Source: Spongilla lacustris
Taxonomy: Eukaryota; Porifera; Demospongiae; Spongillida; Spongillidae
Length of the DNA stretch: 64,000 nt
Assembly (NCBI GenBank): GCA_949361645.1
Contig: OX442415.1
Coordinates: 22,115,790 to 22,179,789 of the forward strand
Reading direction: 5' to 3'
Positions 8,118-61,892 of this stretch are shown here, in pieces; positions within the stretch are counted from its first letter, which is position 1, and each line of letters starts with the position of its first letter. The notes under the pieces were generated by a model. It had not been told where the DNA came from, searched no databases, and was given only the letters and a program-made list of their open reading frames with translations. Made by a program: the position numbers and the translations under genes.

Positions 8118-8148
8118 AGGGTTTTAAAAAAAAGGGGGGGGGGGGGGG
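8040..8148. repeat. (CA)n microsatellite plus G homopolymer
   Basis: About 75 bp of uninterrupted (CA)n is followed by a TTTTAAAAAAAA stretch and a run of G. Confidence 0.95.
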
Positions 8149-8900
8149 TTAACCCATGCAGAGGTCACCCAGAAGACAGATACCAAGGGAGAAGCTTACA
8201 GGATGTTCTTACACAGAGATAATCCCATGCAGTGTCAAGGCTTCGAACAAAGTGTTACTTTGAAATTATCCCTAAGTGTACACGCCCCATATAGCAGGAC
8301 CATAAGGGTTAAACATAAAAAAGGGGGGTTACCCAATGCAGAGGTCACCCAGAAGACAGATACCAAGGGAGAAGCTTACAGGATGTTCTTACACAGAGAT
8401 AATCCCATGCAGTGTCAAGGGTTCGAACAAAGTGTGAATTATCCCTAAGTGTACACGCCCCATATAGCAGGACCATAAGGGTTAAATATAAAAAAGGGGG
8501 GTTACCCAATGCAGAGGTCACCCAGAAGACAGATAAGCTTACAGGATGTTCTTACACAGAGATAATCCCATGCAGTGTCAAGGCTTCGAACCAAGTGTGA
8601 CTTTGAAAATATCCCTAAGTGTACACGCCCCATATAGCAGGACCATAAGGGTTAAACATAAAAAAGGGGGGTTACCCAATGCAGAGGTCACCCAGAAGAC
8701 AGATACCAAGGGAGAAGCTTACAGGATGTACTTACACAGAGATAATCCCATGCAGTGTCAAGGCTTCGAACAAAGTGTGACTTTGAAATTATCCCTAAGT
8801 GTACACGCCCCATATAGCAGGACCATAAGGGTTAAACATAAAAAGGGGGGTTACCCAATGCAGAGGTCACACACCCCATATAGCAGGACCATTGCATATG
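8149..8900. repeat. ~180-bp tandem repeat, about 4.3 copies
   Basis: The unit contains GCAGAGGTCACCCAGAAGAC, a GGATGTTCTTACACAGAG segment and CATATAGCAGGACCATAAGG, and ends in AAAAAGGGGGG. Copies start near 8149, 8329, 8503, 8682 and 8860. The third copy lacks six bases (CCAAGGGAG region) and the last is truncated. The 60-aa periodic open frames are products of this periodicity. Confidence 0.9.
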
Positions 8901-14214: not shown

Positions 14215-14256
<42 letters not shown>

Positions 14257-14485
14257 ACATACACACATACACATACACACATATACACACACATACACAT
14301 ACACACATACACACACATACACACATACAGCATACACACATACACATATAGTTATACACACACATACACATACACATACACACATACACACACATACACA
14401 TGTACACATACACACACATACACACACATACACACACATACACATACACACATACACACATACAACACACACACACACACACATA
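14215..14485. repeat. (CA)n / (TACACA)n microsatellite
   Basis: About 270 bp of CACA and TACACA repeats. It produces long His/Thr- or Cys/Val-rich false frames on both strands. Confidence 0.95.
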
Positions 14486-16712: not shown

Positions 16713-17530
16713 CAGTGGCGGATCCAGGAATTGGGAGGGGGGGGGGGGGCACCGGCGAGGGTGTGGCAAGGGGTGGGGCGAAGTAGTAGGCGGGGCGCCC
16801 CGGGGAGGGTGCGGGAGGGGGGCACCCCTCCCGCCCAGCTAGGGGGTGTGGGGGAGCGCTGTAAGCTCTCCCACCGGGGTCTGGGGCTCCGCCCCAGAAG
16901 CCAACGCTTTTTGCGTAGAAAACCCCCCAAAAAGTACGTAAAAACTGCACTAAAAATGTAATTACTGATCGAGGCTGGGGAGCGACAGATCAAGAGCTCA
17001 GCCGCTATATGTTCAATGCGCCGATGCATCGCCGTTGATAGCTCATGTCCTGAAGTTGAACTCACCGTTTATTCGTTTAGAAGATATTGAAATACTACCT
17101 CACATGACGCGTGGGCGTTAATTGCTTTGTTTGCCTCCACGGAAATATATGGGCTAATTTTGGGGTTATGCTCGGTTTTTGGTACTTTTCGATATGCTCT
17201 CTAGAGGGAAAATTGAATAGCATACGCTAAACGGTCGGCTAATGATCTCTGCCTGTACTTCTATTGTAGAGCCAAATGCTATTACGTGTCACGCGATAAA
17301 AGCAATCATATTCATACTTGGCCCTGACCCATGTATCGTTATGTACGTAGGTGTACGTATAGGCCATTTCTGCCGTAGCTATACCTCTGCGCTGCGTTTG
17401 CATACGGTCGCGTACACATAGTCGTACATGTACGTGTATACGTAGGGGCGGGACTCTCGGAAAGGGGAGGGGGGGGGGGGGGGGGGGGGGGCACGGGCCC
17501 GTTGTGCCCCCCCCCCTGGATCCGCTACTG
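16713..17530. mobile_element. Non-autonomous DNA transposon with CAGTGGCGGATCCAGG ends
   Basis: The left end CAGTGGCGGATCCAGG and the right end CCTGGATCCGCTACTG are inverted copies with two mismatches, each followed inward by a G (or C) homopolymer. The flanks share a 5-bp direct repeat TACAT (16708-16712 and 17531-17535), a likely target-site duplication. CAG-starting ends fit hAT-type elements, but the TSD is shorter than 8 bp. No transposase frame remains. An internal segment (GGGGCTCCGCCCCAGAAGCC) recurs at about 40050. Confidence 0.75.
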
Positions 17531-17535
17531 TACAT

Positions 17536-18144
17536 TACATATATTTGTATCAAATATCTATGGTCATGCGAGCAAGCCTCACGGGCGGGCACCTGCTCTT
17601 GTTTAGACGAGTACTTCACCGAGTCATGAACGATAATGCGTGACATTCTCCAAAATCTTGTTGGAGTACCACAAACCATAGTATTTTTATAGGGGCGCAG
17701 GGATGGAATAATATAATAATAAGCCACCAGCCTGCAGAGATAAGACTGACTCTAAATATTAAATCGACAATTGAATACGGATACTATCAGATTGCTGTTG
17801 TAGATGTTGTCATGCACTTCATCGCTTGCAGCTGGAGACGCTGTTTCGCTTGTACCTTAGAATATCGCGATACTAGGTATAACCGTCCCCCTTCGATAAT
17901 TGCAATAATTAAAAGCGAGTTTTAATAGTATTTTTAAAAACTCCTTTCCATGATATCCTTGTTTGTTATGCACTAATTATAATAAAACGCGACTTAGTCG
18001 CTGTCACATATGCATGATTTGTTGTACTGAGTATTGATTGGAACTGCGGTATAGATTGTATTCCCACCTAGATGTGTTGTATATATGCTATCAGTTACAT
18101 CTTAATATCGCATTGTATTGATCTGCTACTTTGGTTACCTCAAC
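17536..18144. promoter_or_regulatory. 5' flank of Roco copy 1 with possible TATA box
   Basis: A GTATATATGC element at 18079-18088 lies about 57 bp before the proposed initiator ATG at 18145. No other promoter element can be named. The rest shows no exon. Confidence 0.3.
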
Positions 18145-18172
18145 ATGTTCCCCTTTATCCAAAATCCAGTGG
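18145..18172 (+). CDS. Proposed single first exon of the Roco/death gene copy 1
   Basis: ATG in a CAACATG context, nine codons (MFPFIQNPV) plus one base, then the donor G|GTAAGT. Joined to the exons at 23198-23232, 23306-23312 and 23812 onward, it gives one open frame without stops into the ROC P-loop. Frame agreement over three splice junctions is the evidence. No transcript data are available. Confidence 0.45.
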
Positions 18173-18550
18173 GTAAGTGTCCAATGTTTACATGTGATGT
18201 ACCATATTTATTATGCCCTCTACTTTATACATAACTATGACACACCAGAAGGTAAGTGTTGTGCTATCTCATATGTCATATAGCAGTACAGTACTAAGCT
18301 CATTCTTCATTGTTTTTGAAACTGTTTGGTGAGCACATTACCATGTACATATATAGCTGATAGCTGCTTGAAGCATTCACTCTATGAACTTGTACACGAA
18401 TAATACATTCCATTCATGCTAAATCCAATAAACACAACAGCCGGTAGCCATTTTTCATAGCACATTGTGCACAAAACATGTAGTGCAATGAATATGTGTG
18501 ATATTGTAATGTGACATTGTCCTTTATTATTGCATATCGTATCGAACCCT

Positions 18551-21500
18551 ATGGCTCCTCTCTTTACACATTTTCCTTACTCAATTGTCAAAAATCAAGC
18601 GTGTAAGTGCCAGTAATGTGATGTTCCTTATTGCATGTTGTATTGAACCCTATGGCTCCTCTCTTTACACATTTTCCTTACTCAATTGTCATCAATCAAG
18701 CGTGTAAGTGCCAGTAATGTGATGTTCCTTATTGCATGTTGTATTGAACCCTATGGCTCCTCTCTTTACACATTTTCCTTACTCAATTGTGAACAATCAA
18801 GCCTGTAAGTGCCAGTAATGTGATGTTCCTTATTGCATGTTGTATTGAACCCTATGGCTCCTCTCTTTACACATTTTCCTTACTCAATTGTCATCAATCA
18901 AGCGTGTAAGTGCCAGTAATGGGATGTTCCTTATTGCATGTTGTATTGAACCCTATGGCTCCTCTCTTTACACATCTTCCTTACTTAATTCTCAACAATC
19001 AAGGATGTAAGTGCCAGTGATGGGGTGTTCCATATTGAACCTATGGCTCCTATCTTTACACATCTTCCTTACTTAATTCTCAACAATCAAGGGTGTAAGT
19101 GCCAGTGATGTGATGTTCTTTATTGCATGTTGCATTGAACCCTATGGCTCCTCTCTTTACAAATTTTCCTTACTCATTTGTCAACAATCAAGCCTGTAAG
19201 TGCCAGTGATGTGATGTTCCTTATTGCATGTTGTATTGAACCCTATGGCTCCTCTCTTTACACATTTTCCTTACTCATTTGTCAACAATCAAGACTGTAA
19301 GTGCCAGTGATGTGATGTTCCTTATTGCATGTTATATTGAACAATATGGCTCCTCTCTTTACACATTTTCCTTACTCAATTGTCAACAATCAAGGAAGTA
19401 AGTGCCAGTAATGTGATGTTCCATATTGCATGTTGTTTTGAACCCTATGGCTCCTCTCTTTACACATCTTCCTTACTTAATTCTCAACAATCAAGATTGT
19501 AAGTGCCAATAATTGACATTCCATATTGCATGTTATATTGAACCATATGGCTCCTCTCTTTACACATCTTCCTTACTTAATTCTCAACAATCAAGATTGT
19601 AAGTGCCAATAATTGACATTCTATATTGCATGTTATATGGCTCCTCACGTTACACATTTTCCTTACTCAATTCTTAACAATCAAGTTTGTAAGTGCCAGT
19701 AATGATGCATGTTGTATTTAACCCTATGGCTCCTCTCTTTACACATTTTCCTTACTTAATTACCAAAATCAAGGATGTAAGTGCCTGTAATGTGATGTTC
19801 CATTTTGCATGTTGTTTTGAACCCTATGGCTCCTTTCTTTACACATCTTTCTTACTCAATTGTCAACAATCAAGGATGTAAGTGCCAGTAATGTGATGTT
19901 CCTTATTGCATGTTGTATTGAACCCTATGGCTCCTCTCTTTACACATTTTCCTTACTCATTTGTCAACAATCAAAGACTGTAAGTGCCAGTGATGTGATG
20001 TTCCTTATTGCATGTTATATTGAACAATATGGCTCCTCTCTTTACACATTCTCCTTACTCAATTGTCAACAATCAAGGAAGTAAGTGCCAGTAATGTAAT
20101 GTTCCATATTGCATGTTGTTTTGAACCCTATGGCTCCTCTCTTTACACATCTTCCTTACTTAATTCTCAACAATCAAGATTGTAAGTGCCAATAATTGAC
20201 ATTCCATATTGCATGTTATATTGAACCATATGGCTCCTCTCTTTACACATCTTCCTTACTTAACTCTCAACAATCAAGATTGTAAGTGCCAATAATTGAC
20301 ATTCTATATTGCATGTTATATGGCTCCTCACGTTACACATTTTCCTTACTCAATTCTTAACAATGAAGTTTGTAAGTGCCAGTAATGATACATGTTGTAT
20401 TTAACCCTATGGCTCCTCTCTTTACACATTTTCCTTACTTAATTACCAAAATCAAGGATGTAAGTGCCTGTAATGTGATGTTCCATTTTGCATGTTGTTT
20501 TGAACCCTATGGCTCCTCTCTTTACACATCTTTCTTACTCAATTGTCAACAATCAAGGATGTAAGTGCCAGTAATGTGATGTTCCTTATTGCATGTTGTA
20601 TTGAACCCTATGGCTCCTCTCTTTACACATTTTCCTTACTTATTTGTCAACAATCAAGCCTTTACATGTAAGTGCCAGTAGTGTGATGTTCCTTATTGCA
20701 TGTTGTATTGAACCCTATGGCTCCTCTCTTTACACATTTTCCTTACTCATTTGTCAACAATCAAGCCTGTAAGTGCCAGTGATGTGATGTTCCTTATTGC
20801 ATGTTGTATTGAACCCTATGGCTCCTCTCTTTACACATTTTCCTTACTCATTTGTCAACAATTAAGCCTGTAAGTGCCAGTAGTGTGATGTTCCTTATTG
20901 CATGTTGTATTGAACCCTATGGCTCCTCTCTTTACACATTTTCCTTACTCATTTGTCAACAATCAAGCCTGTAAGTGCCAGTGATGTGATGTTCCTTATT
21001 GCATGTTGTATTGAACCCTATGGCTCCTCTCTTTACACATTTTCCTTACTCAATTCTCAACAATCAAGATTGTAAGTGCCAATAATTGACATTCCATATT
21101 GCATGTTGTATTGAACCCTATGGCTCCTCTCTTTACACATCTTTCTTACTCAATTGTCAACAATCAAGGATGTAAGTGCCAGTAATGTGATGTTCCTTAT
21201 TGCATGTTGTATTGAACCCTATGGCTCCTCTCTTTACACATTTTCCTTACTTATTTGTCAACAATCAAGCCTTTACATGTAAGTGCCAGTAGTGTGAAGT
21301 TCCTTATTGCATGTTGTATTGAACCCTATGGCTCCTCTCTTTACACATTTTCCTTACTCATTTGTCAACAATCAAGCCTGTAAGTGCCAGTGATGTGATG
21401 TTCCTTATTGCATGTTGTATTGAACCCTATGGCTCCTCTCTTTACACATTTTCCTTACTCATTTGTCAACAATTAAGCCTGTAAGTGCCAGTAGTGTGAT

Positions 21501-21783
21501 GTTCCTTATTGCATGTTGTATTGAACCCTATGGCTCCTCTCTTTACACATTTTCCTTACTCATTTGTCAACAATCAAGCCTGTAAGTGCCAGTGATGTGA
21601 TGTTCCTTATTGCATGTTGTATTGAACCCTATGGCTCCTCTCTTTACACATTTTCCTTACTCATTTGTCAACAATCAAGCCTGTAAGTGCCAGTGATGTG
21701 ATGTTCCATATTGCATGTTGTATTGAACCCTATGGCTCCTCTCTTTACACATTTTTCTTACTCAATTGTCATCAATCAAGTTG
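18551..21783 (+). repeat. 33-unit ~101-bp tandem array, each unit a candidate alternative first exon
   Basis: Each unit contains ATGGCTCCTCTCTTTACACA, continues open for 17 codons (consensus MAPLFTHFPYSIVNNQA) and ends at GTAAGTGCC, a near-perfect donor. The ATG-to-donor length is 52 nt in about 28 units, 58 in two, 51 in two and 53 in one, so almost all end in phase 1, the phase needed to join the 23198 exon. Length changes fall mainly in the ~49-nt spacer before ATG. Unit peptides differ at several sites (H/N, F/L/S, S/L, I/F, V/L, last residue A/G/D/V). Higher-order duplications of ~680 and ~612 bp are visible. A degenerate 34th unit without ATG or donor lies at ~21826-21895. It may simply be a satellite grown from an exon; usage is inference. 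Confidence 0.6.
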
Positions 21784-21899
21784 GTAAGTGCCAGTGATGT
21801 GATATGTTCCTTATTGCATGTTGCATTCAACTGTTTGGCTCCTCTCTTAACTTATTATCTTTACCACTCAGTTGTCAAATATCAAGGATGTACATATTA

Positions 21900-23197
21900 A
21901 TTAATTAGTGCCTATAATGTGATGTTGTATTGAATTTACATTAACTGTTTATAGTGCTATTATTTATTGGTTCAAAGTTTCCATGAGTAACATTAATTAT
22001 TAAGATACATTTTGTAAGCTACAAATTGTACATGTAAGTGCACATTTTCATGCTCAATCCCCACCATGGAGCATGAAAATGGAAAATGTGCACATGCTTT
22101 GTTCACCTGCATCTCTAGATAAATATGAATAAGATGTTTTTAATGTCTAGTGTTCAAAATTTACATGCATGCATAATTTTTGAAACTGAAAGTATTTTTC
22201 GGTATTGTATCTTACTGGCCATTTTCTCAAAAGTTTGGGTGTTTATGTCACAATACCAGTGGCAAAGATCGGTTTTTCCATGGTGACACTTCTGGTACAA
22301 ACCTGTATAATTTTACGGTTAAAATGTACATTGTATAAATACATGAGGCATCTATATATGGGACAGTGTCCAGCAATCTATATATATATAATTTATATAC
22401 ATAATTATAATATATATATATTTTTGGCAGCATGGTACAATTGTCAGAAGCACTCATTGCATCACCTCTTCTTTGATATATTTGATGCTCGAGGAGTCTT
22501 GATTCTTTGTGTAATTGTTTAATGCATATGCCATGCTGTCTTGTAAGCATGATATATAACTTTTTAACCCTTGGTTCACACTAAATCATGATAACCCTTA
22601 GGCACCTAACTTACATGTATAGTGGGTGGTAATGTTTAGTGTCCCTGCATAAGCATATTCTAGTATTATTTAAAATAATACTGAATGTGTTTGAGTCCAT
22701 GATTTTGGTGGTGCATGATATGTAGGTATGCATATTAACAGATCCACTGGTTAGTCAGACAAGGTGTTTCACATCTTCCAAAGTCATCTCCTCAACTCCA
22801 TCACTTAAACTTCATGTGCACTTGATGTAAATGACAATGTACACTTATCAGGAATGTAAATTATGGCAGCCCAGGATGAAACTAATTTTAGATCTAGTAT
22901 TACTATCATTATCATGGTTATTTTGAACAGAATGCAACACTTTTATATTGATGACAATAAAGTGTTGTTATGGTTCATTTTCGTACTCAGGTTAGGAACC
23001 ACATTTAAATATTCTAAATTGAGCCCTTAACTACATTCTGTCAAGATGCTGTGATGAATGTATTTACACGTTTATCTGTTCATTAACTATTTCAGTTATA
23101 ATAAAACATGTACTGGCCAAAATAGTTACTTTAGGCGTTGTATTTATGTGTGCCTCTCATACCTTTGATGATTTATACATGTATTATCTTTGCTTAG
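21900..23197. other. Intron or spacer between array and downstream Roco exons
   Basis: No supported exon. A hairpin lies at 22040-22092 (GCACATTTTCATGCTC against GAGCATGAAAATGG...GTGC). From about 22685 the sequence is homologous to 50985 onward (segmental duplication). Confidence 0.4.
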
Positions 23198-23232
23198 ATT
23201 GTAAGTGCTCTAAGAATGTCAAGCAGTTCTTG
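23198..23232 (+). CDS. Roco copy 1, short exon (35 nt)
   Basis: A TTATCTTTGCTTAG acceptor and a TTG|GTAAGG donor bound 35 nt. In the frame set by the array exons it reads DCKCSKNVKQFL or YCKCSKNVKQFL. The equivalent region of copy 2 (51610-51627) keeps only the last 18 nt as exon (YVKQLL). Confidence 0.5.
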
Positions 23233-23305
23233 GTAAGGTTATGCGATATGTTCTGTGTTCTAATTTTATTGAAACTGTTTTAATTCTATAAGAGTTTTAC
23301 TACAG

Positions 23306-23312
23306 AGAGAAG
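23306..23312 (+). CDS. Roco copy 1, 7-nt microexon
   Basis: TTTTACTACAG|AGAGAAG|GTAAGT. It adds Arg-Glu and one base and sets the phase for the 23812 exon. The same seven bases with acceptor and donor are kept at 51705-51711 in copy 2 although the flanking intron has diverged, which supports function. Confidence 0.5.
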
Positions 23313-23811
23313 GTAAGTCTTGGAATATATACATCAGCATGTCACATCTGAACTTACATGTATGATGTAATTCTCATTGGATGTACACCCAGGTTTTAGA
23401 TCAGATTATTTTGGCATCAAAACCTTTAGGTGGATTTTAAGATTCTTTCATCATTTTGCTTATTCTAACAAATCAAATTCACATACTCTAATGTACTATT
23501 GCAAAATTGACTTACCCATTGAAATGATTAACACACAGCTAGTGAACCAATGAAAGGCTAAGCAATGTCTACAAAACAGTCACTGGTTTGATGTTAAATC
23601 TTACCTTTCAACAACTTTGATCTTTATGGACCCATGATATCAATATTAAGCAAGTGACAGTTTTCATTATATGCAAGGCTTTTGAATTTATTAAACAGTA
23701 CATTTGTCATTGTTTAGTTAATATTGGTATCTCTATATAGTATGGTTCGTGTTTAATGATTTCTATGGAATAATGGGTGTGGTTAGTAATGGATCAAAAT
23801 CTTTTATTTAG

Positions 23812-25808
23812 AAGACTATCAAAAAGCCCTCAAACTTGGAAAAGTGGAAGTGGCATACGGAAAGGTGATGTTTATTGGCGAATCAGGAGCTGGAAAAACA
23901 AGTCTGCTCAGGGCATTGATGAACCTACCAATAGTCAAAGCTAACAGTACTGTCATGGCCGACATTTGGTCTCTGAAGTGGAGAAAAGTTGCCACAACTG
24001 AAGATGGATACTGGAATGAGGTTAGTGAGGAGGATGAACTGAAGGAACTGGCAATTCTAGCCAACCAAGTCATGCGTTCAGAGTCTGTTAGTGGATTGTC
24101 AGCAGCCACTGACACACCCGCCCCTACATTAGAGTCTCCACAGCCTGGTGATGTTGATGATGAACTTCTAAAACTAGCCAATACAGAGCTGAGTGAAATA
24201 ATTGCCAGAAGCAAAGAGTATTCATCAACAGAAAGAATCGAGTCTGACCAGTACCTCAATGTGTGGGACAGTGGAGGGCAAAGGGTATTTTTAGATGTGC
24301 TTCCTCCTTTTCTGACATCACGGACAATGTTTTGTCTCATGTTTGATGCTTCAAAACCACTGAGTGAAAAGGTAGAAGTGAACTGGAATAAAGAAGGCCA
24401 TTCCACACATTTAGAAACACTAAAAATAACTCGAAAAGATCTTATACTTCAATGGATGTATTGCATTCATAGCACCTTTTTAAATAGGAGTGATGTTAAA
24501 GTGCGAATTCCAGGTCAAGATAGCCGGGTATCTCCATTTCCTCAAATTCTGGTAATTGGAACACATGGTGATAAGATCACAGAAGGTCGCAAGAAAAGGA
24601 TAAAAGACAAACTTGAGCAAAGATATCCATGTCATGACCAAGTGAAGGACACATTAATACTGAATACCATGAAGAGGGATGATAAGGAAGATCCTGCAAT
24701 TAAGAAAGTGATGGAGCTTGTGAAACTGTTTGTTTCAGATGCTCTGTGTATCAGCACTCCTGTGGCTTGGGTGCTGTTTCGCAAAGTTTTCATTAAGGTA
24801 ACAACAAAACATAACAGGCCTGTCGTTGAAATGAACAAAGTGGCAATAATATCCCAATCATGTGGAATAGAGAACAGTTCATTGAACAGTGTCCTCAGCT
24901 TCTACCATGACCTTGGAGTGTTCCTTCATTATGGATCTGTTGAGGGTCTGAAGGATGTGGTGATAGCCCAGCCTCAGTGGTTGGTGAAACATCTTGGTAC
25001 CTTGCTGGCTCCAGAGCTACCTGGTGAGAAGATAGATGGTCCAAAGGAGGCATGGAAGTTGTTACGTCACCAGGGCATCCTTGTGCAGGCACTATATGAA
25101 GAGGTGTGGAAGGGAAAGAATGTTAGGCCACAAGCATTGGTTAATTTGTTAGAAAGCCTTTCTCTAATATCGAAGATGAAAAAAGAAGCCATTGCTATTC
25201 CACGAGCTTCCTTAAAATATGATGGGGCAAATATGTACTTCATGCCAGGTGTGCTGCCCATATCCACCAAGGAGGTGGAGCCAGATGTCCATGCTGTTCT
25301 CACAGCTGCTCCACTGCACCTGGTGTTCAGTACAAAGTATGTCCCTCCTTGGTACTTTGTTAGATTGGTCACTGTTCTGAGCAGCAAGAATAATAATATT
25401 TGGATGATGTTTACTCCTGAAATGGTTTCAAATATGATATTATTTCAGTATCAAGTGGATCAAATGAATGGAAGGATAGATAGCTTTACTGTATTTGGAG
25501 CACCATCTAGTATCCGCATAGATATGAGCAGAAAGGCACACTGTGCATATAATAGCAATTGGGCCAACTTCCCATGCACATGTCAGGCACTGCTGAAACT
25601 GCTGTATGGAGCAATCCATGAGGTACAGCAGTGGTTTCCTTCTGTTAAGGTTGAACCAGCATTCCAGTGTAAATGTTCCCACAAAGAGCCACATTTTGTA
25701 ACCATTTCATTAACACATGGAAGTTCAACTGCTCTTCCATGTGAATACCAACAAGTACTTCCTCCTAGTGCAGATGAACAACTTTGGTTAAGGATCCCAC
25801 AGAGCGAA
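23812..25808 (+). CDS. Roco copy 1, ROC-COR exon
   Basis: The acceptor TTTTATTTAG and donor GAA|GTAAGT bound a 2-kb open exon. The product is a Roco-family GTPase core. Walker A is FIGESGAGKTSLL. The switch II motif is WDSGGQ, matching the ROC W/D-x-GGQ type. The base-recognition motif is GTHGDK, where ROC domains use THxD. A long insert lies between switch I and II. A COR region follows, with SFYHDLGVFLHY, AQPQWLVKHLG and HQGILVQALYEEVWKG. A Cys-rich segment lies near the end (CAYNS...FPCTCQ and FQCKCSHKEPH). ROC-COR proteins are large dimeric GTPases such as LRRK2 and DAPK1. The death-fold exons follow at 25871, 26318 and 26618. It is highly similar to copy 2 (53447-55452). The copy's last exon is frameshifted. 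Confidence 0.85.
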
Positions 25809-25870: not shown

Positions 25871-26115
25871 GAGAATAATCCAATATTTGAAAATGAGCTT
25901 AATGCATTAATAGGAGATATTGTACATAACTCAAAGCGATTGACGTCTAATATGTTATCAAATCTTTTTAAAGCACTTGAAGTAGAGCACTGGGGAGCAG
26001 AATATGATGATTACGTCACAGCTCTTAGGCATTGGTCACGTGGCATGGGAGGGGAAGCTAGAAGCCATCTTGCATATCATTTAAAGAGGATTGGGCTGCC
26101 ACTATTGGGTCAAAA
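25871..26115 (+). CDS. Roco copy 1, death-fold module 1 exon
   Basis: The acceptor is TTTCCAAATCAG and the donor CAAAA|GTAAGG. It reads ENNPIFENELNALIGDI, a linker, and LFKALEVEHWGAEYDDYV with a final HLAYHLKRIGL. The spacing of hydrophobic residues and Trp suggests a six-helix death-like fold. Assignment is by pattern and weaker than for module 3. Confidence 0.65.
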
Positions 26116-26166: not shown

Positions 26167-26239
26167 GATTGATCATGGTGATTACTGCACTAGAGGTGAC
26201 CAGGCATCCAGTACTGTGCATAACCCTGGTGGAGGGAAT
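26167..26239 (+). CDS. Roco copy 1, 73-nt linker exon
   Basis: GTTTCTATAG acceptor and AAT|GTAAGT donor. It reads IDHGDYCTRGDQASS and a Gly-rich end. The exon is conserved in copy 2 (55825-55897) with the same length and phase. Confidence 0.65.
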
Positions 26240-26317: not shown

Positions 26318-26559
26318 AGGATTGCAGTAGTGACTGACAGTGAACTGGAAAGGTGTTCTAGCCTCATCAGTCATGAAGCTGACCTCTCTGTATTGATTTC
26401 ACATCTTGGAATACCAGTTGAAGCTCAGGAAGGTCTATCAAATCAAGCGTTATCACTACTTAAATGGTGGCAGCATCACCATGGCACTGAAGCCTCCAGG
26501 CACAAGCTAGCTGATATCCTCCAAAGCTGTGGTCAAGGATTTGAACAAGCTGCTGCATA
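26318..26559 (+). CDS. Roco copy 1, death-fold module 2 exon
   Basis: AACTCTTGTAG acceptor and GCATA|GTAAGT donor. It reads RIAVVTDSELERCSS, then LSVLISHLGIP, LSLLKWWQHHHG and HKLADILQSCG. This resembles a death domain (L-x(2)-LGIP and a W-x(n)-L-x(2)-L-x(2)-CG end). Confidence 0.7.
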
Positions 26560-26617: not shown

Positions 26618-26883
26618 CTTCAAACCTGAGATGAAGCAGCCTCAGTAAAGAGTGTGCTGTGAAGTGGTACAGACTTGGTCTTGAGCTGGACATCCCTGAT
26701 GACACACTGGAGGTCATTGGAAAGAATACTCATAACTGTGATCATGAAGAGGCTCTGATAATGGTGCTGCGGGAATGGCTACATAACTGTACCAATCCAA
26801 CATGGATAGCTGTTGTGCAAGCTTTGAAAACTATAGGACTAAACCAAACAGCAAGTATAATTGAAAAGAAATATAGTGTTTAA
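26618..26883 (+). pseudogene. Roco copy 1, death domain exon broken by an 11-nt deletion
   Basis: After TTGTACAG the exon reads FKPEMKQPQ and stops at TAA. Compared with copy 2 it lacks the 11 bases ACATTAGTAAG; AAG flanks the deletion on both sides, as in microhomology deletion. Downstream, in the old frame, the death domain is otherwise preserved (WYRLGLELDIPDDTLEVI, VLREWLHNC, WIAVVQALKTIGL) up to a TAA at 26881-26883. The predicted protein ends about 80 residues early, before death domain 3. Confidence 0.75.
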
Positions 26884-37360: not shown

Positions 37361-38839
37361 GCCACAACAGCAACGGGTCGCAAGCTACAAGGGATTTTTA
37401 AGCTTAATACAGTTTCTCCCAATGATGTTACGAATGAGTTCTGCTATACATGTAGCTCACTTGCCAAAGTGGACTCAATTGAATCTAATGAGTTGGAACA
37501 GCCAAACAAATACGCACATAACAAAGCGTCAGGTTTCATTGATATCGAACGTTTACCACATATTATCTTAATAGGCTCTATAACTGATGAGGATAACAAC
37601 ATTATACATGTACAATATGACGCTGCTGTGACAAAACAAAATGGAATGTTCCAAGCTGAATCCCCAGTCCCTATTATAGAAAAAAATGTTCTGCTCGTTG
37701 GTGCTACAGGAGCTGGTAAAAGTACATTGGTCAATGGTCTAGCAAACTACATGTACCTAATGGGTGTGAAATGGGAGGATTCCTTTCGTTATAAACTTGT
37801 GGATGAAGGTATGAAAAGTCAGGTTCACAGTCAAACCTCACAAATCACTATCTATACCTTCCAGAATTCAGCTAAGCTGAAGTACACACTGTCTGTCATT
37901 GATACTCCTGGGCTTGGAGATACCAAAGAACTGGAGAGAGATCAAAAAATCATCATGAACATTAAATCAATTTTTTCAAAATCTAGATTTCAAACATTGC
38001 ATGCAATTGGCTTTGTTGCTCAAGCTCCGCTGGTAAGACTTACCCCAACACAAAGGTATGTCTTTGATTCACTCTTAGCCTTATTTGGAAATGATGTTGT
38101 AGACAACATTCTGGTAATGGCAACATTTGCTGATTGGAACCAACCTCCATTGCTGGCAGCCATGAAAGATACAAACATCCCGTTCTGTGAAGCATTGAAA
38201 TTTAACAACTGTGCATTGTACTTTGCAAATAAAAGTAGTGACGGTGATGCAGATTCTGATGATGATGGAGGTGAGGCTCTTAGCTTGCACAGATGCTACT
38301 GGAAAATGGGAGTTAAATCATTCGATGTACTGTTTAATAGGCTTGATAAGCTTCAAGGCAAAAGTATGAAACTTACAAGTGAAGTATTGAAAGAAAAACA
38401 CTTTCTAGAAAATGCATTCCGTGTGTTGCATCAGCAAATCAAAATAGGCATTTTCATAATACACCAATTACAAGTTGAAAAGGATCTGTTATCAAATAAT
38501 ACACCTGATAGTGAAACTAATGAGGCAACTGAATTAATGGCAAGGGACGTGAAGCTTGCATCTTGTAAAGCTGTTCACTGCACAAAATGCAATGTATCCT
38601 GTTATCTGGAAAATGAGGGTATTATTCCTTTTGAAGAAGCTTGTGATATTTGTCCACATCATTGTGCAAAGGAAACTCACCATATTACATCCTCCTATCG
38701 TGAGGTTGAACACATAAAGGTCAACCAAAAGGTATCTGAGCTAAGGATGAAGTATTCAGGTACAAACAGCATTGAAACAATTGAGCTGTCATTGCAATCA
38801 TTGAATGCAGCCGTGCTCACCTTGCTAGCCAAAGTTTAG
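37361..38839 (+). CDS. P-loop GTPase (AIG1/GIMAP-like) with Cys/His cluster, copy 1, premature TAG
   Basis: The frame is open from an acceptor-like CTATGGTTTTAG (37351-37360). The protein has Walker A GATGAGKST, Walker B/G3 IDTPGLGDT and a G4-like TFADWNQP. A C-terminal Cys/His-rich segment (HCTKCNVSC... CDICPHHC) may bind metal. This arrangement fits TRAFAC septin/AIG1-type GTPases, which act as membrane-associated or immune-type switches in animals; the family call is by motif. It is about 98% identical to copy 2 (44370-46022). A TAG at 38837-38839 replaces CAG of copy 2; the frame continues open after it (RSQRRLDQIALRPVPH...) to a stop at 39005-39007. A 2-residue insertion (Met-Tyr) follows NGLANY. 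No in-frame ATG lies near the start, so translation needs an upstream exon or an internal Met at about 37648. Confidence 0.75.
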   Translation, partial: ATTATGRKLQGIFKLNTVSPNDVTNEFCYTCSSLAKVDSIESNELEQPNKYAHNKASGFIDIERLPHIILIGSITDEDNNIIHVQYDAAVTKQNGMFQAESPVPIIEKNVLLVGATGAGKSTLVNGLANYMYLMGVKWEDSFRYKLVDEGMKSQVHSQTSQITIYTFQNSAKLKYTLSVIDTPGLGDTKELERDQKIIMNIKSIFSKSRFQTLHAIGFVAQAPLVRLTPTQRYVFDSLLALFGNDVVDNILVMATFADWNQPPLLAAMKDTNIPFCEALKFNNCALYFANKSSDGDADSDDDGGEALSLHRCYWKMGVKSFDVLFNRLDKLQGKSMKLTSEVLKEKHFLENAFRVLHQQIKIGIFIIHQLQVEKDLLSNNTPDSETNEATELMARDVKLASCKAVHCTKCNVSCYLENEGIIPFEEACDICPHHCAKETHHITSSYREVEHIKVNQKVSELRMKYSGTNSIETIELSLQSLNAAVLTLLAKV

Positions 38840-41593: not shown

Positions 41594-42352
41594 CAGTGCT
41601 GCCGCGATATGGTCTTTAGCCGATATCGCCTATATCGCGATATATCGCGATATGAGTAAAATATCGCAATATAGTATCGTGATATTTTTAAGTATATTCA
41701 TCGAGCAATTATTTATCAATAACCACACCATTTTCATGCAAGTTGAGGTTGCGTTGTTGTGGTGGCGACACAAGAACAAAAACATAAAATGGCACAGTAT
41801 CACATGCAGGAAAAGAATTTAAGAGAGGATTAAATCACTGCGTGAATGAACATATATGCTTTCCGATCACATAATGATTCCAAAATGATTTTGTGGCCCC
41901 ATTCATCTTCCTCATCGAAAAAAAAAAGACTCGTGTTTAACGATATTATCTCCATAAACGTAAACTCTTCCATGACAATATTTCAAATAATACATGTCAG
42001 TATAATATGGTGAGAAAGAGAACTTATTATAAGCGTTCGCGGTTACACGTTTAAATACTTACACGGGCGGCTGATTTTCAATGGGGGCGGATAATTTACA
42101 GTATATATGTACGCAGCACTGCAGCTGAATTCGAATGTATGTGCATGCATGCGTGGCCCAACACTAGTTACATCTGCTGAATAACTTTTTCGTATATTTC
42201 CGTCTTTCTCCGTCTATTCTCCCGGCTATCTCCGTATATCCATGTACGTTTGTATCGCGATATGACCAAAAAATATCGCGATATATCGCATATCACGATA
42301 TATAAAAAATATCGCGATATATCGCATATCGCGATATATCGCGGCAGCCCTG
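41594..42352. mobile_element. 759-bp non-autonomous hAT element with 8-bp TSD
   Basis: Ends CAGTGCTGCCGCGATAT and ATATCGCGGCAGCCCTG are inverted copies, and the flanks are identical 8-bp repeats AGAGCAAT (41586-41593 and 42353-42360). CAG ends plus an 8-bp TSD are diagnostic for hAT. Both subterminal regions are packed with TATCGCGATA palindromes. No transposase frame remains. Confidence 0.92.
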
Positions 42353-44357: not shown

Positions 44358-44369
44358 TATGACATCTCC

Positions 44370-46022
44370 ATGATCCCTGTGACAGGAAAATGTGGAATGT
44401 TCCAAGCTGGATTTTTTAAGCTTAATACAGTTTCTCCCAATGATGGTACGAATGAGTTCTGCTATACATGTAGCTCACTTGCCAAAGTGGACTCAATTGA
44501 ATCTAATGAGTTGGAACAGCCAAACAAATACGCACATAACAAAGCGTCAGGTTTCATTGATATCGAACGTTTACCACATATTATCTTAATAGGCTCTATA
44601 ACTGATGAGGATAACAACATTATACATGTGCAATGTGACGCTGCTGTGACAGAACAATGTGGAATGTTCCAAGCTGAATCCCCAGTCCCTATTATAGAAA
44701 AAAATGTTCTGCTCGTTGGTGCTACAGGAGCTGGTAAAAGTACATTGGTCAATGGTCTAGCAAACTACCTAATGGGTGTGAAATGGGAGGATTCCTTTCG
44801 TTATAAACTTGTGGATGAAGGTATGAAAAGTCAGGTTCACAGTCAAACCTCACAAATCACTACCTATACCTTCCAGAATTCAGCTAAGCTGAAGTACACA
44901 CTGTCTGTCATTGATACTCCTGGGCTTGGAGATACCAAAGAACTGGAGAGAGATCAAGAAATCATCATGAACATTAAATCAATTTTTTCAAAATCTAGAT
45001 TTCAAACATTGCATGCAATTGGCTTTGTTGCTCAAGCTCCGCTGGTAAGACTTACCCCAACACAAAGGTATGTCTTTGATTCGCTCTTAGCCTTATTTGG
45101 AAATGATGTTGTAGACAACATTCTGGTAATGGCAACATTTGCTGATTGGAACCAACCTCCATTGCTGGCAGCCATGAAAGATGCAAACATCCCGTTCTGT
45201 GAAGCATTGAAATTTAACAACTGTGCATTGTACTTTGCAAATAAAAGTAGTGACGGTGATGCAGATTCTGATGATGATGGAGGTGAGGCTCTTAGCTTGC
45301 ACAGATGCTACTGGAAAATGGGAGTTAAATCATTCGATGTACTGTTTAATAGGCTTGATAAGCTTCAAGGCAAAAGTATGAAACTTACAAGTGAAGTATT
45401 GAAAGAAAAACACTTTCTAGAAAATGCATTCCGTGTGTTGCATCAGCAAATCAAAATAGGCATTTTCATAATACACCAATTACAAGTTGAAAAGGATCTG
45501 TTATCAAATAATACACCTGATAGTGAAACCTATGAGGCAACTGAATTAATGGCAAGGGACGTGAAGCTTGCATCTTGTAAAGCTGTTCACTGCACAAAAT
45601 GCAATGTATCCTGTTATCTGGAAAATGAGGGTATTATTCCTTTTGAAGAAGCTTGTGATATTTGTCCACATCATTGTGCAAAGGAAACCCACCATATTAC
45701 ATCCTCCTATTGTGAGTTTGACCAAACAAAGGTTCTCAAAAAGGTATCTGAGCTAAGGATGAAGTATTCAGGTACAAACAGCATTGAAACAATCGAGCTG
45801 TCATTGCAATCATTTAATGCAGCTGTGCTCACCTTGCTAGCCAAAGTTCAGCGGAACCAAAGGAGGTTGGATCAGATTGCACTGAGACCTGTTCCTCACT
45901 CAGAAGTACAGTACATAGAGCAACTGATCCAATTGGAAAAGCAAGAGGCCAGACCTGGCTTTGAACAAAATGTGAGGTACTACGAGGAGGTCATGAAGCA
46001 GGCTCATCTTTGTTTGCTGTGA
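44370..46022 (+). CDS. P-loop GTPase (AIG1/GIMAP-like) with Cys/His cluster, copy 2
   Basis: 550 codons from ATG. Walker A GATGAGKST at 117-125, G3 DTPGLGD at 182-188, G4-like TFADW at 256-260, an acidic loop DGDADSDDDGG at 295-305, and a Cys/His cluster at 403-442 (C403, C408, C411, C415, C429, C432, C436 plus several His). A helical C-terminus (QRNQRRLDQIALRP... YYEEVMKQAH) follows. It is the full-length counterpart of copy 1, reading CAG where copy 1 has TAG. The likely biochemistry is GTP binding with Mg2+; partners and location are unknown. Upstream the same frame continues beyond a TAA into 43776-44357, so the true start could be either 43776 with a nonsense mutation or this ATG. Confidence 0.8.
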   Translation: MIPVTGKCGMFQAGFFKLNTVSPNDGTNEFCYTCSSLAKVDSIESNELEQPNKYAHNKASGFIDIERLPHIILIGSITDEDNNIIHVQCDAAVTEQCGMFQAESPVPIIEKNVLLVGATGAGKSTLVNGLANYLMGVKWEDSFRYKLVDEGMKSQVHSQTSQITTYTFQNSAKLKYTLSVIDTPGLGDTKELERDQEIIMNIKSIFSKSRFQTLHAIGFVAQAPLVRLTPTQRYVFDSLLALFGNDVVDNILVMATFADWNQPPLLAAMKDANIPFCEALKFNNCALYFANKSSDGDADSDDDGGEALSLHRCYWKMGVKSFDVLFNRLDKLQGKSMKLTSEVLKEKHFLENAFRVLHQQIKIGIFIIHQLQVEKDLLSNNTPDSETYEATELMARDVKLASCKAVHCTKCNVSCYLENEGIIPFEEACDICPHHCAKETHHITSSYCEFDQTKVLKKVSELRMKYSGTNSIETIELSLQSFNAAVLTLLAKVQRNQRRLDQIALRPVPHSEVQYIEQLIQLEKQEARPGFEQNVRYYEEVMKQAHLCLL

Positions 46023-51609: not shown

Positions 51610-51627
51610 TATGTCAAGCAGTTATTG
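51610..51627 (+). CDS. Roco copy 2, 18-nt exon
   Basis: ATTCTCTCAG acceptor and TTG|GTAAGG donor. It reads YVKQLL. It is shorter than the copy 1 exon by 17 nt because the upstream acceptor is lost, so its incoming phase is 0 instead of 1. The first exon of copy 2 was not found. Confidence 0.4.
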
Positions 51628-51704: not shown

Positions 51705-51711
51705 AGAGAAG
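51705..51711 (+). CDS. Roco copy 2, 7-nt microexon
   Basis: CTATTTACAG|AGAGAAG|GTGAGT. Same seven bases as in copy 1 (23306-23312); it bridges LL to the EDNYQKAL start of the ROC exon in frame. Confidence 0.5.
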
Positions 51712-52778: not shown

Positions 52779-53446
52779 TATGCAAGCTTCTGATCACTAT
52801 TCTTAAAACTATTACATCATTGTGCTTATTCTAATAACTCCCTTTGCATACTACAGCTTGCTCATGTAGGTGAATTTATGTGCTAAATAATTAAAAATGC
52901 ACATTGGAAGTTACAGTTATCATTTGATTGTGTGCAAGAAATAAGCAATGCAGCAGTGTGGTTATTATTGCCACTGCTAGTTAATTTTAATATACCATTA
53001 ATTAAGCCCTCTGAAGACTAGCTTGGCTAGCTGAGACAAGCTGACTATCAACATCATTGTTTGGTTCCATCTCATTAATATATGCATGACATCAGAGTGG
53101 ACACAAATAATGCACACATCAGCATTTAGTAAAAAAATGAAAGGCTAACTTTACTCAATCACTGAGTTTATCTTTCAACCACTCAACCAACTTTGATCTT
53201 CATGAATTCATTATATTAATGTTTAACAGCTGACAGCTTTTTGTCTTATCTCACTATATATAATGATTTTCAATTTTATTAAACAGTATAGTTATTGTTT
53301 TGCAATATCAGAAATTGCAGTAAAAATATATCTCTTAGTAGTTAGTTTTTGATGATTTGTATGGCACAACGAAATAATAGTGGGTGTGTTCAGTTACTGA
53401 TATGTCAGTAAATGAGTACTGAATTAAAGTCTTTATTTGCTCACAG

Positions 53447-55452
53447 AAGACAACTACCAAAAAGCCCTCAAACTTGTAAAAGTGGAAGTGGCATATGGAA
53501 AGGTGATGTTTATTGGTGAATCAGGAGCTGGAAAAACAAGTCTGCTCAGGGCATTGATGAACCTACCAATAGTCAAAGCTAACAGTACTGTCATGGCCGA
53601 CATTTGGTCTCTAAAGTGGAGAAAAGCTGCCACAACTGAAGATGGATACTGGAGTGAGGTTAGTGAGGAGGACGAACTGGAGGAACTGGCAATTCTAGCC
53701 AACCAAGTCATGCGTTCAGAGTCTGTTAGTGGATTGTCAGCAGCCACTGACACACCCACCCCTACATTAGAGTCTCCACAGCCTGGTGATGTTGATGATG
53801 AACTTCTTCAACAAGCCAATATAGAGCTGAGTGAAATCATTGCCAAAAGCAAAGAGTATACTTCAACAGAAAGAATTGAGTCTGACCAGAACCTCAATGT
53901 GTGGGACAGTGGAGGGCAAAGGGTATTTTTAGATGTGCTTCCTCCATTTCTGACATCGCGGACATTGTTTTGTGTCATGTTTGATGCTTCTAAACCACTG
54001 AGTGAAAATGTAAAAGTGAACTGGAATAGAGAAGGCCATTCCACACATTTAGAAACACTAAAAATACCTCGAAAAGATCTTATACTTCAATGGATGTATT
54101 GCATTCATGGCACCTTTTTAAATAGGAGTGATGTAAAAGTTCAGATTCCAGGTCAAGATAGCCAGGGATATGTATCTCCATTTCCTCAAATTCTGATAAT
54201 TGGAACACATGGTGATAAGATTACAGCAGGTCACAAGAAAGGAATAAAAGATGAACTTGAGCAAATATGCCCATGCCATGACCAAGTGAAGGACACATTA
54301 ATACTGGATACCATGAAGAGGGATGATAAAGAAGATCCTGCAATTAAGAAAGTGATGGAGCTTGTGAAACTGTTTGTTTCAGATGCTCTGTGTATCAGCA
54401 CTCCTGTGGCTTGGGTGCTGTTTCGCAAAGTTTTCATTAAGATAACAACAAAACAAAACAGGCCTGTTGTTGAAATGGACAAAGTGGCAATAATTTCCCA
54501 ATCATGTGGAATAGAGAACAGTTCATTGAACAGTGTCCTCGGCTTCTACCATGACCTTGGAGTGTTCCTTCATTATGCATCTGTTGAGGGTCTGAAGGAT
54601 GTGGTGGTAGCCCAGCCTCAGTGGTTGGTGAAACATCTTGGTACCTTGCTGGTTCCAGAGCTACCTGGTGAGAAGATAGATGGTCCAAAGGAGGCATGGA
54701 AGTTGTTACGTCACCAGGGCATCCTTGTGCAGGCACTATATGAAGAGGTGTGGAAGGGAAAGAATGTTAGGCCACAAGCATTGGTTAATTTGTTAGAAAG
54801 CCTTTCTCTAATATCAAAGATGAAAAAAGAAGCCATTGCTATTCCACGAGCTTCCTTAAAATATGATGGGGCAAATATGTACTTCATGCCAGGTGTGCTG
54901 CCCATATCCACCAAGGAGGTGGAGCCAGATGTCCATGCTGTTCTCACAGCTGCTCCACTGCACCTGGTGTTCAGTACAAAGTATGTCCCTCCAGGGTACT
55001 TTGTTCGATTGGCCACTGTTCTGAGCAGCAAGAATGATAATATTTGGATGATGTTTACTCCTGAAATGGTTTCAAATAAGATCTTATTTCAGTATCAAGT
55101 GGATGAAAAGTATGGAAAGATAGATAACTTTACTGTATTTGGAGCACCATCTAGTATCCGCATAGATATTAGCCGAAAGGCACACTGTGCGTATAATAGC
55201 AGTTGGGCCAACTTCCCATGTACATGTCAGGCACTGCTGAAACTGCTGTATGGAGCAATCCATGAGGTACAGCAGTGGTTTCCTTCTGTTAAGGTTGAAC
55301 CAGCATTCCAGTGTAAATGTTCCCACAAAGAGCCACATTTTGTTACCATTTCATTAAAACATGAAAGTTCAACTGCTCTTGCATGTGAATACCAACAAGT
55401 ACTTCCGCCTAGTGCAGATGAACAACTTTGGTTAAGGATCCCACAGAGCAGA
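53447..55452 (+). CDS. Roco copy 2, ROC-COR exon (intact)
   Basis: TTTGCTCACAG acceptor and AGA|GTAAGT donor. Open throughout. Motifs, counted from residue 1 at 53437: Walker A GESGAGKTS (27-35), switch II WDSGGQ (156-161), base-recognition GTHGDK (256-261). The COR region begins about 318 with SFYHDLGVFLHY-type and AQPQWLVKHLG segments. A Cys-rich part is near 575-640. ROC-COR proteins use GTP binding and COR dimerisation to control attached effector domains; here the effectors are death folds encoded by the next four exons. There is no kinase domain, unlike LRRK or DAPK, and no LRR or ankyrin repeats were found upstream. Compared with copy 1, most differences are conservative substitutions plus a Gly-Tyr insertion near residue 244. 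Confidence 0.87.
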
Positions 55453-55512
55453 GTAAGTTGTCTTTTCGAGTTGAAGAATTGGCTATAAGTGTCTTGTTCT
55501 GTTTCCAATCAG

Positions 55513-61789: not shown

Positions 61790-61892
61790 GTAAGTCAGTA
61801 CATGTACTTGTGTATAGAAGAGCTGTTTACAGTTTACATATGCACGTAACCAGTGTACATGTAATTAGTGAGCTCTCGTTATTGTTCAGAGA

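Follow-up and report, generated by a model that had tools for sequence, protein, structure and literature searches.

The locus analysed here raises the question of what a tandem array of short units encodes upstream of a ROC-COR-death gene of Spongilla lacustris. The stretch under study (the window) comprised 64,000 nucleotides of contig OX442415.1, positions 22,115,790 to 22,179,789. The original prediction had described the units as 33 alternative first exons, each with its own ATG, 17 codons and a GTAAGT donor that joins a 35-nt exon in phase 1. Judged from the sequence, the array is probably made up of 33 internal exons in tandem, of the form AG-NNN-GTAAGT, one codon each except for two with three codons, in the 5' coding part of the gene. 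The array itself and its position were confirmed by the unit count, Tandem Repeats Finder and the Pfam domains of the gene. The 33 units, recognised by the start motif ATGGCTCCT, ran from 18551 to 21732 at about 101 bp apiece, GTAAGTGCC was present in every unit, and Tandem Repeats Finder reported 18527 to 21848 with a period of 101 and 33.4 copies. The candidate exons were laid out as follows.

18527..21848, forward strand, tandem array with 33 units, each about 101 bp long and made up of an intron of about 98 nt with AAG at its end, a candidate exon of 3 nt (31 units) or 9 nt (2 units), and GTAAGTGCC
18600..18602, forward, candidate microexon 1, CGT
18701..18703, forward, candidate microexon 2, CGT
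18802..18804, forward, candidate microexon 3, CCT
18903..18905, forward, candidate microexon 4, CGT
19004..19006, forward, candidate microexon 5, GAT
19092..19094, forward, candidate microexon 6, GGT
19193..19195, forward, candidate microexon 7, CCT
19294..19296, forward, candidate microexon 8, ACT
19395..19397, forward, candidate microexon 9, GAA
19496..19498, forward, candidate microexon 10, ATT
19596..19598, forward, candidate microexon 11, ATT
19686..19688, forward, candidate microexon 12, TTT
19774..19776, forward, candidate microexon 13, GAT
19875..19877, forward, candidate microexon 14, GAT
19977..19979, forward, candidate microexon 15, ACT
20078..20080, forward, candidate microexon 16, GAA
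20179..20181, forward, candidate microexon 17, ATT
20279..20281, forward, candidate microexon 18, ATT
20369..20371, forward, candidate microexon 19, TTT
20457..20459, forward, candidate microexon 20, GAT
20558..20560, forward, candidate microexon 21, GAT
20659..20667, forward, candidate microexon 22, CCTTTACAT (9 nt)
20766..20768, forward, candidate microexon 23, CCT
20867..20869, forward, candidate microexon 24, CCT
20968..20970, forward, candidate microexon 25, CCT
21069..21071, forward, candidate microexon 26, ATT
21169..21171, forward, candidate microexon 27, GAT
21270..21278, forward, candidate microexon 28, CCTTTACAT (9 nt)
21377..21379, forward, candidate microexon 29, CCT
21478..21480, forward, candidate microexon 30, CCT
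21579..21581, forward, candidate microexon 31, CCT
21680..21682, forward, candidate microexon 32, CCT
21781..21783, forward, candidate microexon 33, TTG

The assembly (248.6 Mb, 51 contigs) was searched with a 26-nt piece of the unit, starting at the ATG, and with a 329-residue query from the ROC exon. The unit piece gave 72 exact matches (61 on the plus and 11 on the minus strand), every one of which fell into one of four clusters, located in the window, at two other places on contig C1 and on C22. The ROC query gave 40 matches in all, among them 15 near-complete copies, six close (86-100%) and nine at 50-53%. All four unit clusters were located upstream of a close ROC copy and shared its orientation. 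The arrays with this type of unit, referred to as A-type, were the following.

C1:21964 kb, A-type array A1
C1:22018-22027 kb, A-type array A2, about 87 units
the window array, A-type array A3
C22:448-455 kb, A-type array A4
C1:22057.6 kb onward (L046), A-type array A6, read in part

These five arrays provided 334 units (191 haplotypes), and changes were counted on a tree from which the NNN columns had been left out. The acceptor AG was present in 334/334 units, the donor GT in 333/334 and the full GTAAGT in 308/334. The interval between AG and GT was 3 nt in 325 units and 9 nt in the other nine, with no other length, which is the arrangement of a 3-nt microexon (AG, 3 nt, GTRAGT). The three NNN columns changed 57, 60 and 20 times, compared with a mean of 5.6 (standard deviation 3.7, maximum 18) in the 88 other columns, and on the same tree the AAG before them changed 2, 0 and 0 times and the GTAAGT after them 1, 0, 1, 2, 0 and 1 times. 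The entropy at NNN was 1.76, 1.91 and 0.88 bits, compared with 0.33 on average elsewhere; single columns elsewhere (37 and 89) exceeded the third NNN column. Constrained AG and GTAAGT on either side of three free bases are characteristic of an internal exon of 3 nt. Indels spared a defined part of each unit, as had been noted originally, and intron lengths differed by 1-2 nt in many units. The 9-nt exons of A1, A2, A4, A6, window units 22 and 28 and the array B21 described below consisted of NNN followed by TTACAT, GTACAT, GTGCAT or, once in A2, GTACGT; this hexamer is possibly one old insertion, which could also supply a second donor 6 nt upstream.

The variability of the codon was also seen between recent duplicates, although such pairs are not independent. 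The divergence per site at NNN and in the background was 0.129 and 0.0145 in A1, 0.075 and 0.0086 in A4, and 0.095 and 0.0077 in A6. In A2, with its many near-identical units, the values were 0.464 and 0.0187. In A3 they hardly differed (1/51 sites, or 0.0196, against 0.013). The faster turnover of NNN in four of the five arrays fits diversifying selection, but may instead reflect a targeted mutation process or hotspot.

On the same units, the reading as 33 alternative first exons was weighed. An uninterrupted stretch of 17 codons per unit had been claimed, and TAA was found in units 24 and 30. The claimed ATG-to-donor length of 52 nt was seen in 28/33 units and 58 nt in two, but the length was 51 nt in units 13 and 20 and 53 nt in unit 15. 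With a 3-nt exon these apparent exceptions can be reinterpreted: 51 and 53 nt would result from intron indels, and 58 nt from the 9-nt exon (CCT TTA CAT). The open phase-1 frame was kept in 59/61 units scored in A1 and 28/35 in the window array, which favours first exons, and in 41/70 in A4, 50/70 in A6 and 31/85 in A2, where 50/85 were in phase 0 and the required phase was thus lost. Over the five arrays, changes in the 52-nt frame numbered 96 in 17 columns at codon position 1, 80 in 16 at position 2 and 58 in 16 at position 3. The deficit at position 3 is mild and runs contrary to what coding constraint would produce, and the spacer had a similar rate (6.2 per column); the frame showed no triplet constraint. 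An earlier count on four arrays (231 units, 134 near-full haplotypes) gave 69, 70 and 65 changes at positions 1, 2 and 3, with 3.8 per site in the spacer against 4.0. Coding constraint on MAPLFTHFPYSIVNNQA was rejected, since neither the four-array nor the five-array test found any. The original prediction had agreed to fall if the 52-nt segments gathered frameshifts and stops as spacers do; this was the case for the 52-nt frame in the sister arrays and not for the 3-nt interval (0/334 non-multiples of 3). Tandem exon-like cassettes with conserved donors 5' of the gene therefore stand, whereas the cassette as an ATG-initiated 52-nt first exon, having no triplet constraint, does not. The combination of an ATG and a constrained open frame in each cassette, expected of protocadherin-like first exons, was not found. 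First exons would explain neither the invariant AG that stands three bases ahead of the donor nor the hypervariable NNN, and the B-type arrays described below differ in sequence, with ACAAAG in the position of ATGAAG in many units of B18. The arithmetic of 52 + 35 + 7 nt into the ROC exon is correct and speaks for first exons, which are nevertheless highly improbable.

The reading frame of the one-codon exons depends on the exons that flank the array. Pfam identified Roc (PF08477) and COR-A (PF16095) in the exon at 23.8-25.8 kb and Death (PF00531) at 26318-26557 (E 1e-4) and 26638-26877 (E 4.5e-6), the Roc, COR and Death domains of a ROC-COR-death protein.

18170..18172, forward, microexon-like site CCAG-TGG-GTAAGT (in A2, GCG-GTGAGT)
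18213..18251, forward, candidate first coding exon from ATG to AAG, 39 nt, phase 0, MPSTLYITMTHQK, donor GTAAGT, putative start
23198..23200, forward, 3-nt exon-like site AG-ATT-GTAAGT (TTT in A1, CTT in a fragment at C1:23.77 Mb), at the start of the originally predicted 35-nt exon
23227..23232, forward, 6-nt exon-like site CAG-TTCTTG-GTAAGG (TTATTG, TTCCTG and TTCATG in sister copies)
23306..23312, forward, 7-nt microexon AGAGAAG, phase 0 to phase 1
23812..25808, forward, ROC and COR-A exon, 1997 nt (Pfam)
25871..26115, forward, coding exon (splice signals)
26167..26239, forward, coding exon (splice signals)
26318..26559, forward, coding exon with Death domain (Pfam)
26637..26883, forward, last coding exon with Death domain, stop TAA at 26881-26883 (Pfam)

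The candidate ATG exon was also open and ended in phase 0 in A2 (MPSTLYITMTQQK) and, by eye from the alignment, in A1 (MPCTLYITLTHQK). A 7-nt exon upstream of the ROC exon was found in 11/11 array-bearing copies and in the second ROC-COR copy of the window, in two sequence families: AGAGAAG in A1, A2 (donor GTTAGT), A3, A6 and the second window copy, ATAGAAG in A4, GTCAAAG in B15, B16, B18, B21 and B23, and GTCAGAG in B17. It was not seen within 1.5 kb upstream of the copies at L019, L020, L022 and L024. Since the 7-nt exon shifts phase 0 to the phase 1 required by the ROC exon, only phase 0 is open to the array, and NNN would represent whole codons. The predicted chain of ATG exon, 33 units, 6-nt exon, 7-nt exon and five further exons was open for 988 codons without a stop, beginning MPSTLYITMTHQK-RRPRDGPTEIIFDDTEIIFDDPLHPPPIDPLHPPPPL-FL-REEDYQKAL, and was open too when ATT replaced the 6-nt exon or neither was included. 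The phase-1 chain through the 35-nt exon was rejected: with the array in phase 0, that exon leads to a stop after codon 61, and it is further weakened because its own 5' end reads AG-ATT-GTAAGT. A protein search gave 206 matches, and among the 120 matches listed the lengths fit single-exon ORF (open reading frame) calls, which carry no splicing information.

More distant ROC-COR paralogues carried arrays with different intron sequence and the same arrangement of splice sites. These B-type arrays were located upstream of the distant copies.

C22:4229438, B-type array B15
C3:12558463, B-type array B23
upstream of further distant copies, B-type arrays B16, B17, B18 and B21

Altogether, arrays were present at 11 of the 15 full-length paralogues. 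The B-type introns differed in sequence from the A-type ones, and the AG-NNN-GTAAGT grammar was unchanged; consensus similarity gave a z of 4.4 (weak) for A versus B. Of the 42, 61, 36 and 12 sites listed for B16, B18, B21 and B17, 41, 61, 35 and 11 were of 3 nt, and the remaining three measured 6 nt, 9 nt and 14 nt, the 14-nt one lying 475 nt beyond B17 itself. A table of the B sites made with a profile had an interval of 3 nt in 166/169 rows, with three partial matches reading 0, 0 and 1, and the entropy was 1.71, 1.99 and 0.72 bits at NNN compared with 0.26 elsewhere. B15 contained 20 successive 3-nt candidate exons (19 with GTAAGT, one with GTGAGT). In its 2530-nt stretch all 19 GTAAGT were on the sense strand, and AG-N3-GTAAGT occurred 19 times on that strand and 0 times on the opposite one; the other spacings from 0 to 12 occurred at most once each, and 300 shuffles averaged 0.03 (maximum 1). 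The intron cores of B15 (intron lengths 67-333 nt) resembled each other no more than shuffled sequence did, with 1/171 pairs above the shuffled maximum. B23 (intron lengths 57-181 nt), with introns that were partly related (72/253 pairs), had 19 sites at spacing 3 (0.07 in shuffles), three at 6 (one overlapping a 3-nt site), two at 9 and one each at 1, 5 and 12.

These arrays bear on a further explanation, proposed in the original prediction as its own alternative, in which an unused intronic satellite grew from a duplicated exon and merely kept its signals. The higher-order repeats and homogenised units inside the A-type arrays, the length of A2 at about 87 units and the single TAG unit noted below are in keeping with a satellite. 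The recent syntenic duplicates, however, differ at NNN by 0.020-0.464 per site compared with a background of 0.008-0.019, and identical grammar recurs at other loci. Sites kept while introns diverge, wholly in B15 and partly in B23, are expected if selection acts on the splicing of codon-length exons, and not for an unused satellite; the C22:4229438 array, with introns diverged past recognition and splice sites retained, fits a satellite poorly. A satellite is thus quite unlikely.

Several further observations concern the paralogues. No array was found in 23.8-53.4 kb, upstream of the second window copy (53446-55485); this copy keeps the 6-nt TTATTG (51622-51627) and the 7-nt AGAGAAG (51705-51711), and the preceding AG-NNN-GTAAGT site has been lost. 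A third ROC-COR fragment with stops, at 61880-62468 of the window (C1:22177669-22178257; ORF 62319-62852), is probably a decayed copy. Lone AAGGGTGTAAGTGCTAGTA sites were seen about 3 kb downstream of the ROC copies without a visible array at C14:3310632 and C14:3584254. Upstream of C2:16736345, a weaker ROC match (L053 and L025), there were a few AG-3n-GTAAG sites (TCG, AAA, ATT, CCGATTCCA, ATTCGT, CGT, CAC) and one 7-nt site.

The pattern also occurred elsewhere in the genome. A search of the genome for three successive 3-nt exons 69-99 bases apart gave 482 + 483 = 965 places, compared with 11 + 8 = 19 for the reversed pattern. A control with a 4-nt interval gave 52 + 21 = 73 places and 30 + 29 = 59 reversed, and the listed ones were short-period repeats by eye. 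About the first 100 of the 965 places, which were those listed, grouped by eye into 13 clusters within the initial 15.2 Mb of C1. In six of these clusters (L055-L060), each read in part, the AG-NNN-GTAAGT grammar appeared again, with several Gly and Cys codons; the nearest-AG lists near these arrays held 52 intervals of 3 nt and three of 6, 9 or 12 nt. Intron consensus similarity gave a z of 2.8 for A versus L056 and 0.8 for B versus L056, a comparison that bears on introner-type mobile introns, for which related introns at unrelated sites with target duplications would be expected. The sites in L055-L060 are candidate exons that may be coding. The L056 and L057 arrays end, and that of L055 nearly ends, with a unit AG-AAG-GTAAGTTTG. 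By eye, L058 contains an integrase-like retroelement ORF and L060 a secreted-looking ORF of 268 aa.

Across eight stretches whose arrays are less homogenised (B15, B23 and L055-L060), none of 89 sense triplets was a stop, where column shuffles expect 4.0 (P(0)=0.008), a probability that ignores shared ancestry; for the 38 distinct triplets 1.1 stops are expected (P(0)=0.29), and the whole-stretch scan may include chance sites. This depletion is relevant to a third explanation, in which the splice sites are real and the codons a by-product, the array acting as a ratchet similar to recursive splicing or as a chain of decoys that controls 5' splicing or the amount of product. At the ratchet points of recursive splicing, acceptor and donor are adjacent, the intron is removed stepwise and the exon has zero length. 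The near contact of acceptor and donor in the array is similar, and B15 and B23 conserve the sites and not a shared codon string, with NNN free to vary. Unlike ratchet points, however, which have no base between AG and GT, the A-type units retained 3 or 9 nt in 334/334 cases. Neither the coherence of phase 0 through the 7-nt exon nor the depletion of stops is required by such a chain, which is unlikely.

Some observations weigh against one-codon internal exons. Four of the 15 full-length copies had no array in the stretch read, which for three of them (L019, L020 and L022, on C14) covered 1.5 kb upstream. A6 was paired with the copy at C1:22086026 by order alone, its start being 28 kb upstream and 22064.4-22080 kb lying outside the stretch read. 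The A-type unit finder was a profile from the window's own units, by which strongly decayed units were under-counted. One TAG was present among 325 A-type triplets (A6, about C1:22062.4 kb; shuffles expect 3.9 stops), so that not all units would be readable in all transcripts. The base before the donor was mostly T and almost never C in the A-type arrays, a bias that a purely coding view leaves unexplained. In B18, unlike the other ten copies, no AG precedes the ROC exon, and its frame cannot be followed. The window array alone was open in one additional phase, as was B15, and B23 in phase 0 only; the frame argument therefore rests chiefly on the 7-nt exon. Pyrimidines in the 25 nt before the acceptor were only slightly enriched over the surroundings (0.60 against 0.55 in B15, 0.54 in B23). 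Finally, five intervals near L055-L060 were not multiples of 3 (5 at L055; 14 at L057; 10 at L058; 14 and 11 at L059), mostly at the 3' ends of the arrays, and are either chance sites or real exceptions.

For the one-codon exons, which remain the probable reading of the window array, a mechanism can be proposed. From the patterns above we infer that the array is transcribed and spliced, and that its pattern of inclusion may offer a combinatorial choice with a role in the protein. The exons would lie in phase 0 between the candidate ATG exon (18213-18251) and the 7-nt exon, and the short introns would be spliced out one after the other through intron definition. Since an acceptor and a donor 3 bases apart are hardly usable at once, removal should be stepwise. 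Each step would fuse a codon to the upstream exon, whose end would then border the next GTAAGT donor; this would resemble recursive splicing, but with one codon left behind per step. As all units are multiples of 3, any unit could be skipped in frame, and one array could yield many N-terminal peptides that gain or exchange individual amino acids singly. New units would arise by tandem duplication, after which the codon would evolve faster than the intron.

Elsewhere in the window, AC-rich (14215-14483) and TATCGCGATA-rich (42253-42342) repeats and a 180-bp tandem repeat (8143-8870) were unrelated to the array. ORFs 37361-38839 and 44358-46022, the second of which matches AIG1 (Pfam), were nearly identical by eye and are probably a recent duplication. 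An Rfam scan of 17500-24000 gave no match at E up to 0.1, and hence none to a spliced-leader or other known RNA gene array.

Among known systems, exons of the Dscam and protocadherin type are far larger or have their own promoters; unlike them, the array would contribute one residue per exon and keeps no ATG frame. As in Dscam, its units are homologous and in tandem, here with a codon that differs. The following comparisons draw on parts of the cited papers. The 5' cassettes of Dscam, with the protocadherins alongside, are tandem duplicated exons offering choice (PMC4835542). Isolated 3-nt microexons with strong flanking sites are described for Drosophila hth and TnT, rodent Ncam and human RPS24, with the rule CAG-exon-GTGAGT/GTAAGT for hth (PMC7392893, PMC8042270, PMC11162997). 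The window array is similar in having a 3-nt internal exon between strong sites; those of hth, TnT and Ncam are lone, and that of RPS24 belongs to a set of three microexons in a row (3, 18 and 22 bp), whereas the window has dozens in tandem with a hypervariable codon. In schistosome micro-exon genes there are many very small exons that are symmetrical, and skipping them leaves the frame intact while changing the protein (PMC4350168, PMC4015677). Tiny symmetrical exons with frame-preserving skipping would be shared with the array, apart from the exceptions near L055 and L057-L059. Unlike those genes, the tandem units here are confined to the N-terminal part of a ROC-COR-death gene with one codon per exon, and the coding region is not mostly micro-exonic, the ROC-COR exon alone being 1997 nt. 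The 1-nt microexons of plants (APC11, VPS55), with strong GTRAGT donors, are alike in tiny size and donor strength and are isolated rather than tandem (PMC8831610). Among the titles and abstract starts listed from the open-licence PMC literature, with subscription journals and preprints outside the scope, none described tandem arrays of 3-nt exons.

Taken beyond the window, the results tentatively suggest, at somewhat less than even confidence, a genome-wide coding format that gives each codon of a protein stretch an exon to itself. Variable peptides would be assembled by stepwise in-frame splicing, and duplicated one-codon exons would diversify faster than their introns, here as combinatorial single-residue diversification at the N-terminus of ROC-COR-death GTPases. 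Gene prediction and read mapping easily overlook microexons in general (PMC8831610, PMC8042270), and arrays of one-codon exons could therefore be widespread without having been noticed. With 965 triples compared with 19 in the control, the idea is directly testable. If it is true, rows of 11 to almost 90 one-codon exons would mean that a spliceosome is able to read part of a protein one codon at a time. Intron definition could then be tested at its limits, and a new route from one gene to many protein variants would be open.

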